Shown here in pieces: positions 20,598 through 37,100 of a stretch of DNA of 37,107 bases. This stretch comes from Bacteroidales bacterium UBA4284. Lineage in GTDB: Bacteria > Bacteroidota > Bacteroidia > Bacteroidales > UBA932. The stretch lies in assembly GCA_002395925.1 (NCBI GenBank), contig DGVM01000210.1:1-37107 (forward strand), in the 5' to 3' direction. Within the stretch, counting starts at the first letter, position 1. The number at the start of each line of letters is the position of its first letter. Under the pieces are notes generated by a model. It was not told where the DNA came from and did no database searches. It saw nothing but the letters and a program-made list of their open reading frames with translations. A program made the position numbers and the translations under genes.

Positions 20598-22475
20598 ATG
20601 GAAGCAAACGGCACAATAAAGAAGAATCGCGACCGTATAGGAGTAATCCTGTACGTCATATACGTCGCGCTGCTGCTCGCTTCCGTGGTGCTTTTCCTCA
20701 AGATAGTGGGCATACAGCTGTTCTTCCATCCCGACCCCAAGATTGCCGTCGCCCTCACTCCCAGCAGCCGCGCGCGCATAGTTGAGCCGGTCCGGGGCAA
20801 CATAATCGACTGCGAGGGCCGTCTGCTTGCCATGTCCTGCCCCACCTACCAGATCGCAATGGACTGCACGGTACGCAAAGAAGAATTCGCCAAGGACAAG
20901 AAGAAAGGAGCCGAAGCCGAAAAGGAATGGCTCCGCAAAGCCCAGGCGCTCAGCGTAGAGCTCGCCAAGGTATTCCCCGACAAAAGCGCGGACGAATACT
21001 TCAAGCAGATAAGCGACGGCCGCAAGAACGGAAAGAAATACCTCAAGTTCGGCAAGCCGGTCGACCGCAACGTATATAACCGCATCAAGACCTTCCCGCT
21101 CTTCAACGAGTCCCGCTACAAGGGCGGTCTCATCGCAGAACAGAAGAACGTAAGGATCTACCCTTATGGCAAACTGGCCCGCCGCACGATAGGCTTCGTA
21201 CGCGACAACAGCTCCGCCGTGGGCAACACCCACGTAGGTCTCGAGGGCAAATTCGACTACGTGCTCCATGGCAAGGAGGGCAAAGAGTGGCTCAAGGTGA
21301 CCGACTACGGCCGTGTGCAGGACAACGACAGCACGCGCACACGCGCAGAGGACGGCAAAGACATCCGCACCACCATCAACATCGACTACCAGGACATCGC
21401 ATACCGCAGCCTGTACGACGAAATCTGCGAAGAGGCCGACCTCGAAGGTGCCTGCCTGGTGCTCATGGAGGCATCGACCGGCGCTATCCGGGCCATGGTA
21501 AATCTCTACAGGGACGGCGATGAGGCCAGTTTCGAAGAGGTCAGCAACCTGGCTATCGGCAGGGCCATAGAACCCGGTTCCGTATTCAAGACCGTCACCC
21601 TGATGCAGGTGCTGTCCGACGGGCACATCAAGAGCCTCGACGAAACCATCCGCACCAACCACGGCGTCATAAAAGGCGTCCGCATTCCGCAGGATGTGCA
21701 CATGCTGGACCATGAGAGAATGCATCACACCAACAGCATCTCCATCATCGACGGATTCAAGGTTTCTTCCAACTACGTATTCGGCTCGCTCGCCATAAAC
21801 AACTACAGCAAAAAGCCGATGCGCTTCATCGAAAACATCCACAGCTACAAACTGGCGGAAGCCTTCGACTTCGACCTCGCCGGCCTGGCCTCCCCCGCTA
21901 TACCGTCTCCTAAAGACAAGAACCGCTACTGGAGCCTCAGCGACCTCGCCGTAATGGGTTACGGCTACGGCATACGCGAGACGCCAATGCACATGCTCAC
22001 TTTCTACAACGCCATCGCCAACAAGGGACGCATGATGAAGCCCTACCTGGTGGAAGACATAGAAAAGGACGGGCTGGTCAAGAACCGCCGCGGCCCCGCT
22101 CTCATGTCCACGATATGCAGCAAGGCAGTTGCCGACACCCTCACGAGGGCCCTCAAAGCGGTTACCGAAGAAGGTACGGCCCGCAGGCTCAAGGACGCCA
22201 AATGCCAGGTTGCCGGCAAAACCGGAACTTCTTTCGGAACCTATTCAGGCGGCTCCTACAGAGACGAACAGGGCAGGCGCAAATACCAGGGCACCTTCGT
22301 GGGATTCTTCCCCGCCGACGATCCCAAATACAGCGTCATCTGCACGGTATTCAGCAAGCCCACGTCAAAACAGTTCCAGGGCGGCGGCATACCTGCAAGG
22401 GCAGTCAAAGGACTTGTCAACGGAATCTACAGCATAGATCCCTGCTTCCGTCCACAATTAACAGCAAGCAAATGA
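20598..22475 (+). CDS. ftsI: Penicillin-binding protein FtsI (septal transpeptidase)
   Basis: Cross-links septal peptidoglycan. 625 residues. One membrane helix at about 14-38, a PBP dimerisation domain (RGNIIDCEGRLLAM...), then the transpeptidase with active-site S328-V-F-K331, S390-S-N392 and K541-T-G543. No PASTA domain follows the transpeptidase; some Bacteroidota FtsI proteins are longer with one. It starts one base after ftsL and its stop overlaps the murE ATG (ATGA). Confidence 0.94.
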   Translation: MEANGTIKKNRDRIGVILYVIYVALLLASVVLFLKIVGIQLFFHPDPKIAVALTPSSRARIVEPVRGNIIDCEGRLLAMSCPTYQIAMDCTVRKEEFAKDKKKGAEAEKEWLRKAQALSVELAKVFPDKSADEYFKQISDGRKNGKKYLKFGKPVDRNVYNRIKTFPLFNESRYKGGLIAEQKNVRIYPYGKLARRTIGFVRDNSSAVGNTHVGLEGKFDYVLHGKEGKEWLKVTDYGRVQDNDSTRTRAEDGKDIRTTINIDYQDIAYRSLYDEICEEADLEGACLVLMEASTGAIRAMVNLYRDGDEASFEEVSNLAIGRAIEPGSVFKTVTLMQVLSDGHIKSLDETIRTNHGVIKGVRIPQDVHMLDHERMHHTNSISIIDGFKVSSNYVFGSLAINNYSKKPMRFIENIHSYKLAEAFDFDLAGLASPAIPSPKDKNRYWSLSDLAVMGYGYGIRETPMHMLTFYNAIANKGRMMKPYLVEDIEKDGLVKNRRGPALMSTICSKAVADTLTRALKAVTEEGTARRLKDAKCQVAGKTGTSFGTYSGGSYRDEQGRRKYQGTFVGFFPADDPKYSVICTVFSKPTSKQFQGGGIPARAVKGLVNGIYSIDPCFRPQLTASK

Positions 22476-24007
22476 AGTTAAGCGATATCATACGAGACTG
22501 CGGAGTAATCTCCTGTACAGGCGGCACCGGAATGGAAATAGCCGCCGTATGCAACGATTCCCGCAAAGTCGTCCCCGGAAGCCTCTTTGTCGCCGTAAAC
22601 GGATGCGGCAACGACGGCCGCGCCTACATCGGCAAAGCCATCGAAGCCGGTGCCGTAGCAGTCATGTTCGAAGAGACCTCGAGCAACTTTGGCCCTTACG
22701 AACAGGAGCAAGAGGCAGGAGCTGCCGCGAGCGACTTTGGCCCTTACGAACAGGAGCGAGCGGCAGCTCCTGACGTCGTTCGCATAGTAGTAAAGGACAG
22801 CCGTAAAGCACTTGCATACGCCGCCGACGCCTTCTACGGACATCCCAGCGGATCGCTCAAACTTGTCGGCATTACCGGAACAAACGGCAAAACCACCACC
22901 GTAACCCTCCTGTACAGGCTGTTCAGGGCCCTGGGATACGAGTGCGGACTTCTCTCCACGATTGCGAACTATGTAGGCAGCGAGCGCGAAGAAACCGCCA
23001 ACACCACCTCCGACCCCCTCACGATCAACTCGCTGCTGGCAAGGATGGTGGAGGCAGGCTGCCAATACTGCTTCATGGAGGTCAGCTCCATCGGAGTGGC
23101 GCAGGAAAGGATAGCCGCACTGGAGTTTGCGGTAGGCATCTTCTCCAACCTCACCCACGACCATCTGGACTATCACGGAACTTTCGCCGAATACCTCCGC
23201 TGCAAGAAGCTTTTCTTCGACAATCTCGGCCCCGGCGCAACCGCAATCACCAATGCCGACGACAAGCACGGCAGCGTAATGCTCCAGAACACAGCCGCAC
23301 GCAAAGTCACTTACTCCTGCCGCAGCATGGCCGACCACAGCTGCCGCATACTCGAGAAGAGCTTCGAAGGCATGCTGCTCCGCATAGACGGCTCCGAGGT
23401 CTGGACAAGGCTGGTCGGCGAGCACAATGCATACAACCTCATGGCCATTTACTGCACCGCACTCGCCCTCGGAGCGCCGAAAGACGAGGTCCTGGTGGCC
23501 ATGTCGGCCCTGGGTTCCGCCCCCGGACGCCTCGAAACCATTCACGGCCCGAGAGGCCTTGTAGCGGTGATTGATTATGCCCACACCCCCGACGCACTGG
23601 AGAACGTACTCAAGACACTCCGGGAAGTGGCTCCGTCCAGGCAGCTCGTATGCCTCTTCGGATGCGGAGGCGACCGCGACCGCACCAAGCGTCCCGAGAT
23701 GGGAGCGATAGCCGCAAAATGGGCCGACCGCATATTCGTGACCTCCGATAATTCCCGCACCGAGCGCACCGAAGACATAATGAACGACATACGCGGCGGA
23801 CTCGGCGCCGACGGGCTTGCAAAGTCGGTTTTCATCGCCGACCGCAAAGAGGCCATCCGCACCGCCCTGATGCTCTCCCCCGACGGCAGCACCGTACTGC
23901 TGGCCGGCAAAGGGCACGAAACCTACCAGATAATCGGTACACAGAAAACACATTTTGACGAAAAAGAAATAGTAAAGGAGATTTTCAAGCAATGCTCTAC
24001 CATCTAA
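22472..24007 (+). CDS. murE: UDP-MurNAc-L-Ala-D-Glu ligase for residue 3 (probably meso-DAP)
   Basis: Adds the third amino acid to the peptidoglycan precursor with ATP. 511 residues. The N-terminal domain has CNDSRKVVPGSLFVAV; the ATP loop is TGTNGKTT with Lys140; the C-terminal substrate motif reads D426-N-S-R429, where meso-DAP enzymes normally have DNPR, so DAP use is likely but the Pro is missing. Residues about 70-103 contain an in-frame insertion with two FGPYEQE copies, in place of the short linker usual here (see the repeat at 22686-22772). ATG at 22472 overlaps the ftsI stop; the end overlaps mraY by 16 bases. Confidence 0.94.
   Translation: MKLSDIIRDCGVISCTGGTGMEIAAVCNDSRKVVPGSLFVAVNGCGNDGRAYIGKAIEAGAVAVMFEETSSNFGPYEQEQEAGAAASDFGPYEQERAAAPDVVRIVVKDSRKALAYAADAFYGHPSGSLKLVGITGTNGKTTTVTLLYRLFRALGYECGLLSTIANYVGSEREETANTTSDPLTINSLLARMVEAGCQYCFMEVSSIGVAQERIAALEFAVGIFSNLTHDHLDYHGTFAEYLRCKKLFFDNLGPGATAITNADDKHGSVMLQNTAARKVTYSCRSMADHSCRILEKSFEGMLLRIDGSEVWTRLVGEHNAYNLMAIYCTALALGAPKDEVLVAMSALGSAPGRLETIHGPRGLVAVIDYAHTPDALENVLKTLREVAPSRQLVCLFGCGGDRDRTKRPEMGAIAAKWADRIFVTSDNSRTERTEDIMNDIRGGLGADGLAKSVFIADRKEAIRTALMLSPDGSTVLLAGKGHETYQIIGTQKTHFDEKEIVKEIFKQCSTI
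22686..22772. repeat. In-frame palindromic/direct repeat element inside murE
   Basis: A 24-base direct repeat (ACTTTGGCCC... ending ACAGGAGC) occurs at 22686-22709 and 22734-22757, 48 bases apart. The second copy is enclosed by a perfect 13-base inverted repeat, CAGGAGCTGCCGC (22716-22728) and GCGGCAGCTCCTG (22760-22772). The 48-base period keeps the frame and gives the FGPYEQE peptide twice. This structure is unlike the surrounding gene and resembles palindromic elements that insert in coding sequence, as described in Rickettsia. Confidence 0.8.
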
Positions 24008-36133: not shown

Positions 36134-36174
36134 AGCACCGGACCCCTGGGAGTTTTTCCCAGGGGTCCGGTGCT
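36134..36174. terminator. Perfect palindrome between convergent genes
   Basis: AGCACCGGACCCCTGGG (36134-36150) and CCCAGGGGTCCGGTGCT (36158-36174) are exact complements; A36151 and T36157 add one more pair, leaving a 5-base loop. It sits between the convergent lipoprotein and outer-membrane protein genes and could stop transcription from both sides. Neither strand has a good T run after the stem, so a repeat element or mRNA 3'-end protection is also possible. Confidence 0.55.
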
Positions 36175-36953: not shown

Positions 36954-37100
36954 ATGCCCTGGGGATATATAGCGGTGGCGCTTAATTCTTTGTCTTTCAG
37001 CCACTTCCGCAATCTGCCTGCATGTTATTTGATGCAGGCAGATTGCGTAAGTGATTACGAACCAGGGAGTTGTCCGCCACCGACCTACAGGGAGGAGCAT
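36954..37100. repeat. Nested long inverted repeat at window edge
   Basis: The core arms at 37002-37023 and 37032-37053 match at 21 of 22 bases around an 8-base loop (key part GCAATCTGCCTGCAT). Outside it CGGTGGCG (36973-36980) pairs with CGCCACCG (37075-37082), then CCCTG (36957-36961) with CAGGG (37088-37092), then ATGC (36954-36957) with GCAT (37097-37100), sharing one base with the CCCTG arm. It could be a decayed mobile or palindromic repeat element or a structured RNA. The right flank is cut by the window. Confidence 0.6.

Follow-up and report, generated by a model that had tools for sequence, protein, structure and literature searches.

Few kinds of structured repeats within protein genes have been reported, the Rickettsia palindromic elements (RPEs) being the best known (PMC6649704, PMC10969869). 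RPEs are short, are present in many copies, and lie in frame in unrelated protein genes without destroying them (PMC10969869, PMC6649704). Here we describe a palindromic insert in the murE gene of Bacteroidales bacterium UBA4284, in a 37,107-nucleotide stretch of DNA that forms contig DGVM01000210.1 (the window is this whole stretch). The insert is very probably one copy of a non-autonomous, coding-tolerant mobile palindromic element, about 57-75 bp long in the window's kind, with a conserved loop and a stem that is kept paired. The initial annotation of the window had likened it to RPEs, and the likeness holds, with differences: the Bacteroidales hairpin is also a multi-copy palindromic repeat in unrelated genes, lies in frame, and leaves the host open reading frame (ORF) open. 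It differs in its size of about 57-75 bp, in being read in five frames, and in combining a constant loop with a changing paired stem, and the one conserved peptide across copies described for RPEs (PMC10969869) is not found here. No Rickettsia record appeared among the 32 exact 20-mer core stretches described below. The hairpin would appear to work like an RPE, the comparison being one of description and not of sequence; membership is not claimed.

Several other described repeats are comparable. Repetitive extragenic palindromic (REP) repeats of the GTAG and CGTC types, with stems of 6-13 bp and 8-9 bp that help define families, are multi-copy hairpins that also lie inside genes in several species (PMC3733652). 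The Bacteroidales stem, in contrast, is about 20 bp and variable, its loop is constant, and no adjacency to a REP-associated tyrosine transposase (RAYT) was seen in 57 loci. A position table of the copies, covering -40 to +69, revealed no conserved tetranucleotide outside the stem. Nematomorpha mitochondria contain perfect inverted repeats in coding genes that are gained or lost between species, and template switching has been discussed for them (PMC6649704). They resemble the Bacteroidales copies in lying inside coding genes and in being present or absent between relatives, but they reach 284 bp, both arms encode parts of the protein, and the available portion of the paper names no common loop (PMC6649704), whereas the Bacteroidales copies are marked by a common loop and the insert adds a new protein loop. 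The hairpins of sponge mitochondria are likewise dispersed, by several invasions, but their stems are conserved and their loops vary (PMC2800124), the reverse of the pattern seen here. Bacterial miniature inverted-repeat transposable elements are short and non-autonomous, have inverted arms, and in some cases form in-frame fusions (PMC10969869). In the window's group, however, the Bacteroidales arms do not form a constant terminal repeat; they are largely constant only within genomes G303 and G171. No target duplication was seen at L236, the one site resolved, and no partner transposase is known for the hairpin. PARCEL (palindromic amphipathic repeat coding sequence) is a palindromic repeat in bacterial coding sequence, described as intragenic tandem repeats with one repeat pattern (PMC2996958). 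Among the matches listed in open-licence PubMed Central, the titles and abstract starts held no description of such an element in Bacteroidales.

The product of the ORF at 22472-24007 is assigned to MurE by three Mur ligase Pfam domains, and a murE match was present in all 61 genomes searched of the carrier genus, probably Cryptobacteroides. The gene and the parts of the insert lie as follows.

22472..24007, + strand: murE host gene, 511 aa, ATG at 22472, frame open across the insert; Pfam PF01225, PF08245, PF02875
22677..22724, + strand: first 48-nt unit, with a core at 22685-22707, one change in the 23-mer, and a stem of only 4 bp
22725..22772, + strand: second 48-nt unit, containing the hairpin loop and right arm
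22716..22728, + strand: hairpin left arm, 13 nt, perfect, private to the murE copy
22729..22759, + strand: hairpin apical part, 31 nt, GAGC-[23-nt core]-GCGA, a loop type that recurs in other copies
22733..22755, + strand: 23-nt core GACTTTGGCCCTTACGAACAGGA, translated in the window as DFGPYEQE
22760..22772, + strand: hairpin right arm, the inverted-repeat match to the left arm

A repeat search of the window gave 85% identity between the two 48-nt tandem units and 100% complementarity over 13 nt between 22716-22728 and 22760-22772, which lie 31 nt apart. The exact 24-mer occurs twice in the window, at 22686 and 22734, and at <=3 mismatches it was found a mean of 0.00 times in 100 dinucleotide shuffles. 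The 24-base direct repeat at 48-base spacing and the perfect 13-base inverted repeat that had been noticed in murE are thereby confirmed, as is the claim that the frame is intact through the insert. Only the second copy forms the long hairpin. The first has lost its stem, and therefore the tandem is probably a local duplication of part of one element and not the product of two insertions. An Rfam scan of 22400-23100 returned six matches, all under the gathering score.

The insert makes up about residues 69-101 of MurE. In an AlphaFold2 model built with 39 sequences (mean predicted local distance difference test score, pLDDT, 85.8), residues 71-91 have pLDDT <50 and are flanked by strands at 61-67 and 103-107. 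The expectation that MurE has only a short loop at this position is borne out in the near relatives G171, G004, G007 and G001 but not in the genus at large, where the linker is highly variable and often holds other repeat-like peptides; it looks like a permissive site entered by several repeat families. The frame of the murE element itself differs by genome, reading WPLRTG in G010, LALTNR in G005 and FGPYEQE in the window. Among the 120 best MurE homologues of 8000 scored, the linker contains FGPYEQE, LALTNR or LFVRAKV in three: P0001 (the window protein), P0028 and P0034. Other, unrelated repeat-like peptides precede DSRKA in the linkers of many homologues among P0002-P0120, and also in L104, including EILRSAQDD, IPDQVGDD, VILNASEES, VIPGLTRNLDG and LPDGEGSAAAGFVAPNPVPA. 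Their recurrence among homologues suggests that these are dispersed repeats.

The element is dispersed, but confined to a narrow set of Bacteroidales genomes. The 20-mer core was found in 32 stretches of genome contigs, all in records named Bacteroidales or Bacteroidia, with several genomes contributing several contigs. In the 13 genomes behind these stretches a 25-mer (<=3 mismatches) gave 52 matches, at least one in every genome, and the reversed control pattern gave 0; the 24-base unit singled out by the initial annotation thus recurs elsewhere. In aligned MurE sequences of relatives the segment is absent or different. Together these results mean that the segment is not one that all close relatives share and that is found nowhere else in their genomes. 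A slightly degenerate 20-mer (<=2 mismatches) matched 10 of 151 genomes in the genus of the carrier G005, the reversed control giving 9 single matches; one of the ten, G169, has a single match with 2 mismatches in MraY-like sequence, taken as chance. At <=1 mismatch it matched 1 of 149 genomes in the family of G005, G005 itself, and the control gave 1 match. A covariance model found 18 carriers among 300 genus genomes at E<=0.001, with G222 (E 2.7e-4) and G381 (E 7e-5) resting on one weak match each. At E<=0.0001 it found 3 of 299 genomes in the family, all already-known carriers, and 1 of 395 in the class, again G005. These large runs used strict filters, with which weak matches are lost. Viral contigs gave 0 matches to the element, and a 41-nt query had no match in phage and plasmid collections. 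An assembly artefact was rejected, as the same element is present in metagenome-assembled genomes of several isolate series. No papers on repeat insertion in Cryptobacteroides were found in open-licence PubMed Central.

At the hairpin tip the 23-nt core is nearly constant, and the stem of about 20 bp varies from copy to copy. The commonest loops are the 23-mer closed straight by the stem and the 23-mer within GAGC...GCGA. With their own arms, 58 copies had 914 Watson-Crick cells of 1160 (20 stem positions each); with arms swapped between copies the average was 426 and the maximum 478 in 200 swaps. In the gap-free alignment A1, which holds 48 of the 58 copies, 87.2% of stem cells were paired, and 434 cells were changed on both sides versus 151 (standard deviation 10.8) in shuffles. 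The covariation score was 0.856, compared with 0.208 when shuffled and <=0.220 when the partner was slid by 1-3 columns. Since the stem varies yet stays paired, it is the tip and the foldback that repeat. The 57-base unit 22716-22772, which the initial annotation had suggested searching for, does not recur as such; only its loop does, and the arms differ between copies. One inner core pair also covaries (T-A 48, C-G 8, A-A 2 in 58 copies). RNA folding z-scores for three copies ranged from -6.4 to -10.4, and across copies more loop changes go with fewer stem pairs (Spearman -0.36, P 0.006). Related loops were reached with the covariance model, G171 and G423 having TTGGCCCTTACGAA, and G421 and G303 having GACTTTG...TGTAGCAGGA around a small inner hairpin.

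Some hairpins of these genomes have features of their own. The G303 copies L243-L247 and L315-L318 form a related hairpin with largely conserved arms, and several adjoin GATTCTTCGCTTCGCTC-like repeats; the ORF spanning the L243 copy reaches at most 147 aa. In L005 and L017 one arm, together with the beginning of the core, is duplicated in tandem, a pattern that suggests copying halted inside the hairpin loop. Another hairpin family, whose loops are rich in CCTCCC/GGGAGG, is found at L084:459, L027:5926, L022:6 and in L164. It has private arms of 31, 29 and 26 nt, and in L027 it adjoins the first element.

Coding tolerance is general among the copies. After L142 was dropped as a chance match, 52 of 57 copies lay within ORFs of at least 190 aa and five outside long ORFs. 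The 52 were read as FGPYEQE (18), PVRKGQ (17), LALTNR (11), WPLRTG (5) and LFVRAKV (1), variants included, and the sixth frame, which contains a TAA stop, held 0 copies. For L007 and L028 the frame was assigned manually to match their altronate dehydratase gene. Carrier DNA has long antisense ORFs, so individual frame assignments may be wrong. Counted as 35 gene-frame-site events in 21 host genes, 0 were in the stop frame (P ~0.0017 if frames are equally likely). The FGPYEQE peptide, which the initial annotation had suggested looking for, is present in other proteins, but it is just one of the five frames in which the element is read. The element is read on both strands and in both orientations in unrelated genes, and copies in long ORFs include those in polA, EPSP synthase, altronate dehydratase, glycosidase and murE genes. 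A Pfam family (E<=1e-8) was assigned to 17 of 20 host ORFs scanned, including DNA polymerase A, TsaD, EPSP synthase with dehydroquinase, altronate/galactarate dehydratase, GHMP kinase, GH3, GH88, GH92, radical SAM and GSCFA. Orthologous proteins have the element in the same linker region but in other frames or with other arms. At two sites of one gene (L010, L025, L019), the frame pairs are consistent with a loop flipped in place. The arms there are no more alike than those of other copies in these genomes, so either flipping in place or independent insertions may have produced the pairs.

Whole hairpins are present at some orthologous sites and absent at others. L236, a copy in G423 whose host product is, judging by its motif, probably an HD-type protein, adds 22 residues relative to all seven aligned loci from six genomes; these are 7 of the 8 loci matching at the site (two from G010), L261 being left out. 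The insert is 66 bp, made up of 25 + 16 + 25 nt with both arms included. It is a clean in-frame insertion of two arms plus loop with no net target duplication, and target-site duplication was resolved here only. G004 and G007 are 87.7% identical, and between them L137 faces an empty site in L160, L136 faces a different hairpin in L164, and L024 faces a site in L159 without the hairpin, where the adjoining linker differs too. Elsewhere between these two genomes, L129 faces L168, which lacks about 184 nt, element included, and also L163, which is cut off by a contig edge. The orthologous copies L133 and L128 show arm changes on both sides, the counterpart of L132 is L161, a decayed copy that has lost its right arm, and L131 faces L165 with several copies. 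The flanks of L130, L134 and L135 had no match in the other genome of the G004/G007 pair. An identical 72-nt element is present in two different genes of G423 (L234 and L235). These empty sites and the shared element of L234 and L235 therefore indicate that the whole hairpin moves or is copied, and that its arms are not derived from the target. At L128 there is also a dispersed repeat of ~80 bp, GAAACCTCGCTTCGCTCGTCCCTCCCAGCC..., with many matches in G004 and G007. L003 (G003) and L132 (G004) are 98% identical stretches of two species-level genomes, all other pairs compared being <88%; this may reflect recent transfer or a binning error.

At orthologous sites the loop is conserved at the nucleotide level. 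Nine element codons are the same in all of four altronate dehydratase orthologues (gene identity 76-80%, ~0.55 identity at third positions); over the rest of the gene the codons agree in 110 of 396 amino acid-identical columns, with no other run longer than 4. Core codon identity in four other ortholog groups was 8/8, 7/9, 9/9 and 8/9, versus 0.51, 0.38, 0.71 and 0.55 outside the core. Over 8 orthologous pairs there were loop differences at 3 of 184 sites and arm differences at 91 of 320. Among arm pairs changed on both sides, 7 were broken and 24 kept, the latter an upper bound because up to 10 belong to L022/L128, a pair with a length change between its arms. To avoid redundancy, these 8 pairs were selected from the 14 computed, with five redundant pairs and the uncertain L014/L051 left out. 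Since the core was used to find them, intact loops are favoured; a core with up to 3-4 changes was still findable.

Conservation of this kind could also mean that the hairpin is a functional nucleic-acid site, such as a protein-binding hairpin or an RNA element, that is selected in place and spread by ordinary recombination. Genomes with 76-80% identity in the host gene do share a conserved loop at the same place, and two-sided changes that keep pairing occur at orthologous sites. We consider this explanation rather doubtful, as no common function unites the host genes scanned, presence varies between genomes of about 88% identity, the copies use many frames and both orientations, and the window copy has no Rfam match at the gathering score.

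It is improbable that the hairpin is a REP element moved by a RAYT (Y1 HUH) transposase. Both the hairpin form of the repeat and the insertion without net duplication at L236 would suit such an enzyme, and Y1_Tnp matches (E<=0.001) are present in 22 of 24 genomes, 19 over the cut-off, and in 3 of 5 further genomes, 2 over the cut-off. The core, however, flanks 0 of 57 inspected loci (of 71 matches listed); partial core matches at five of the 57, with 2-3 mismatches in 14-15 nt, are taken as chance. Several hairpins beside Y1_Tnp genes have constant stems, e.g. TTTGCCTGCA or AAACCCGATTGC, which is the opposite pattern, and Y1_Tnp genes are also found in G168 and G169, both without a covariance-model match. 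As a separate observation, many of the RAYT-like Y1_Tnp genes at L178-L197 and L278-L314 have their own nearby hairpins of several families. Two further strong hairpins lie near the end of the window, at 36134-36174 and 37002-37053; the latter includes TGCCTGCA and is similar to hairpins next to Y1_Tnp genes in L179, L182 and L184.

An inverted target duplication, in which the core alone is mobile and the arms are built from host sequence at the insertion site, is highly improbable. Arms that are different in nearly all copies of the window's group, G423 arms that are perfect over 24 bp or more, and one G004/G007 linker that at first appeared to have a native left arm would all agree with it. 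Neither arm, however, is present at the 7 loci aligned with L236 or at the L159 site, L234 and L235 have the same arms in two different genes, and the arms share a weak consensus overall and are largely conserved within G303 and within G171. A selected peptide motif (FGPYEQE) or ordinary protein repeat can be virtually dismissed: FGPYEQE, with its variants, is the most frequent reading (18 of 52), but the DNA is translated from both strands and in five frames in all, which refutes a selected peptide as a general explanation, five copies are outside long ORFs, and codons are identical where synonymous change is possible.

A mobile, coding-tolerant palindromic element is the reading we prefer, and the suggestion in the initial annotation of a self-spreading, coding-tolerant repeat is supported by dispersal, kept frames, and presence or absence at orthologous sites. 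Several points weigh against it. Mobility is read here only from presence and absence, and no mover was found; at the 57 loci inspected, of 71, RAYT-type transposases showed no link. Because most copies were located through their loop, intact loops are favoured, and searching by flank instead gave one decayed copy (L161) and several absences. The pair next to the covarying core pair does not covary (C-G 53, T-T 4, C-A 1), and one-sided arm changes at orthologous sites break the pair 19 times and keep it 10 times. L234 and L235 carry the same imperfect arms, so the stem was not renewed in that copying, and its renewal at every move is therefore unsupported. Over all copies there is a weak arm consensus (<=0.83 bits/position outside the core and closing C-G pair), arms are somewhat more alike between copies than control flanks are, and within G303 and within G171 the arms are largely conserved. 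Thus the arms are diverged and not created anew at each insertion; they would be inherited and then drift.

A mobile element of this type could spread in the following way. An enzyme acting in trans would recognise the folded loop, as single-stranded DNA or RNA, and insert copies. These would survive only in permissive linkers, with a length and frame that keep the gene open, and selection would remove the copies that break genes. Pairing may persist because copies that lose it can no longer move, or because such copies are repaired by copying from arm to arm (template switching); as a result stems would drift while the loop stays constant. In murE, one copy may have entered a disordered loop within the N-terminal part and then undergone partial tandem duplication. 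A more specific proposal, which we offer tentatively, is a class of mobile element defined by its loop. A trans-acting enzyme would read the folded apical motif, and the stem would be a drifting, re-paired handle renewed by fold-back or template-switch copying; in every stop-free frame, the element would seed disordered loops within the essential enzymes of a single Bacteroidales genus. The apical motif that the enzyme would read in this proposal is, equally tentatively, a set of G-A mismatches, a 2-bp CT/AG helix, and the 15-nt loop TTGGCCCTTACGAAC.

The Bacteroidales hairpin is apparently another, independent case of a gene-dwelling structured repeat, in gut and rumen bacteria. With many copies in many genomes and differences in presence and absence between relatives, the movement of such a repeat, the gain of protein loops, and the upkeep of stem pairing could become testable. 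The finding also carries a warning, as repeat-derived peptides that look protein-specific are present in MurE, DNA polymerase I and further conserved enzymes of these bacteria.
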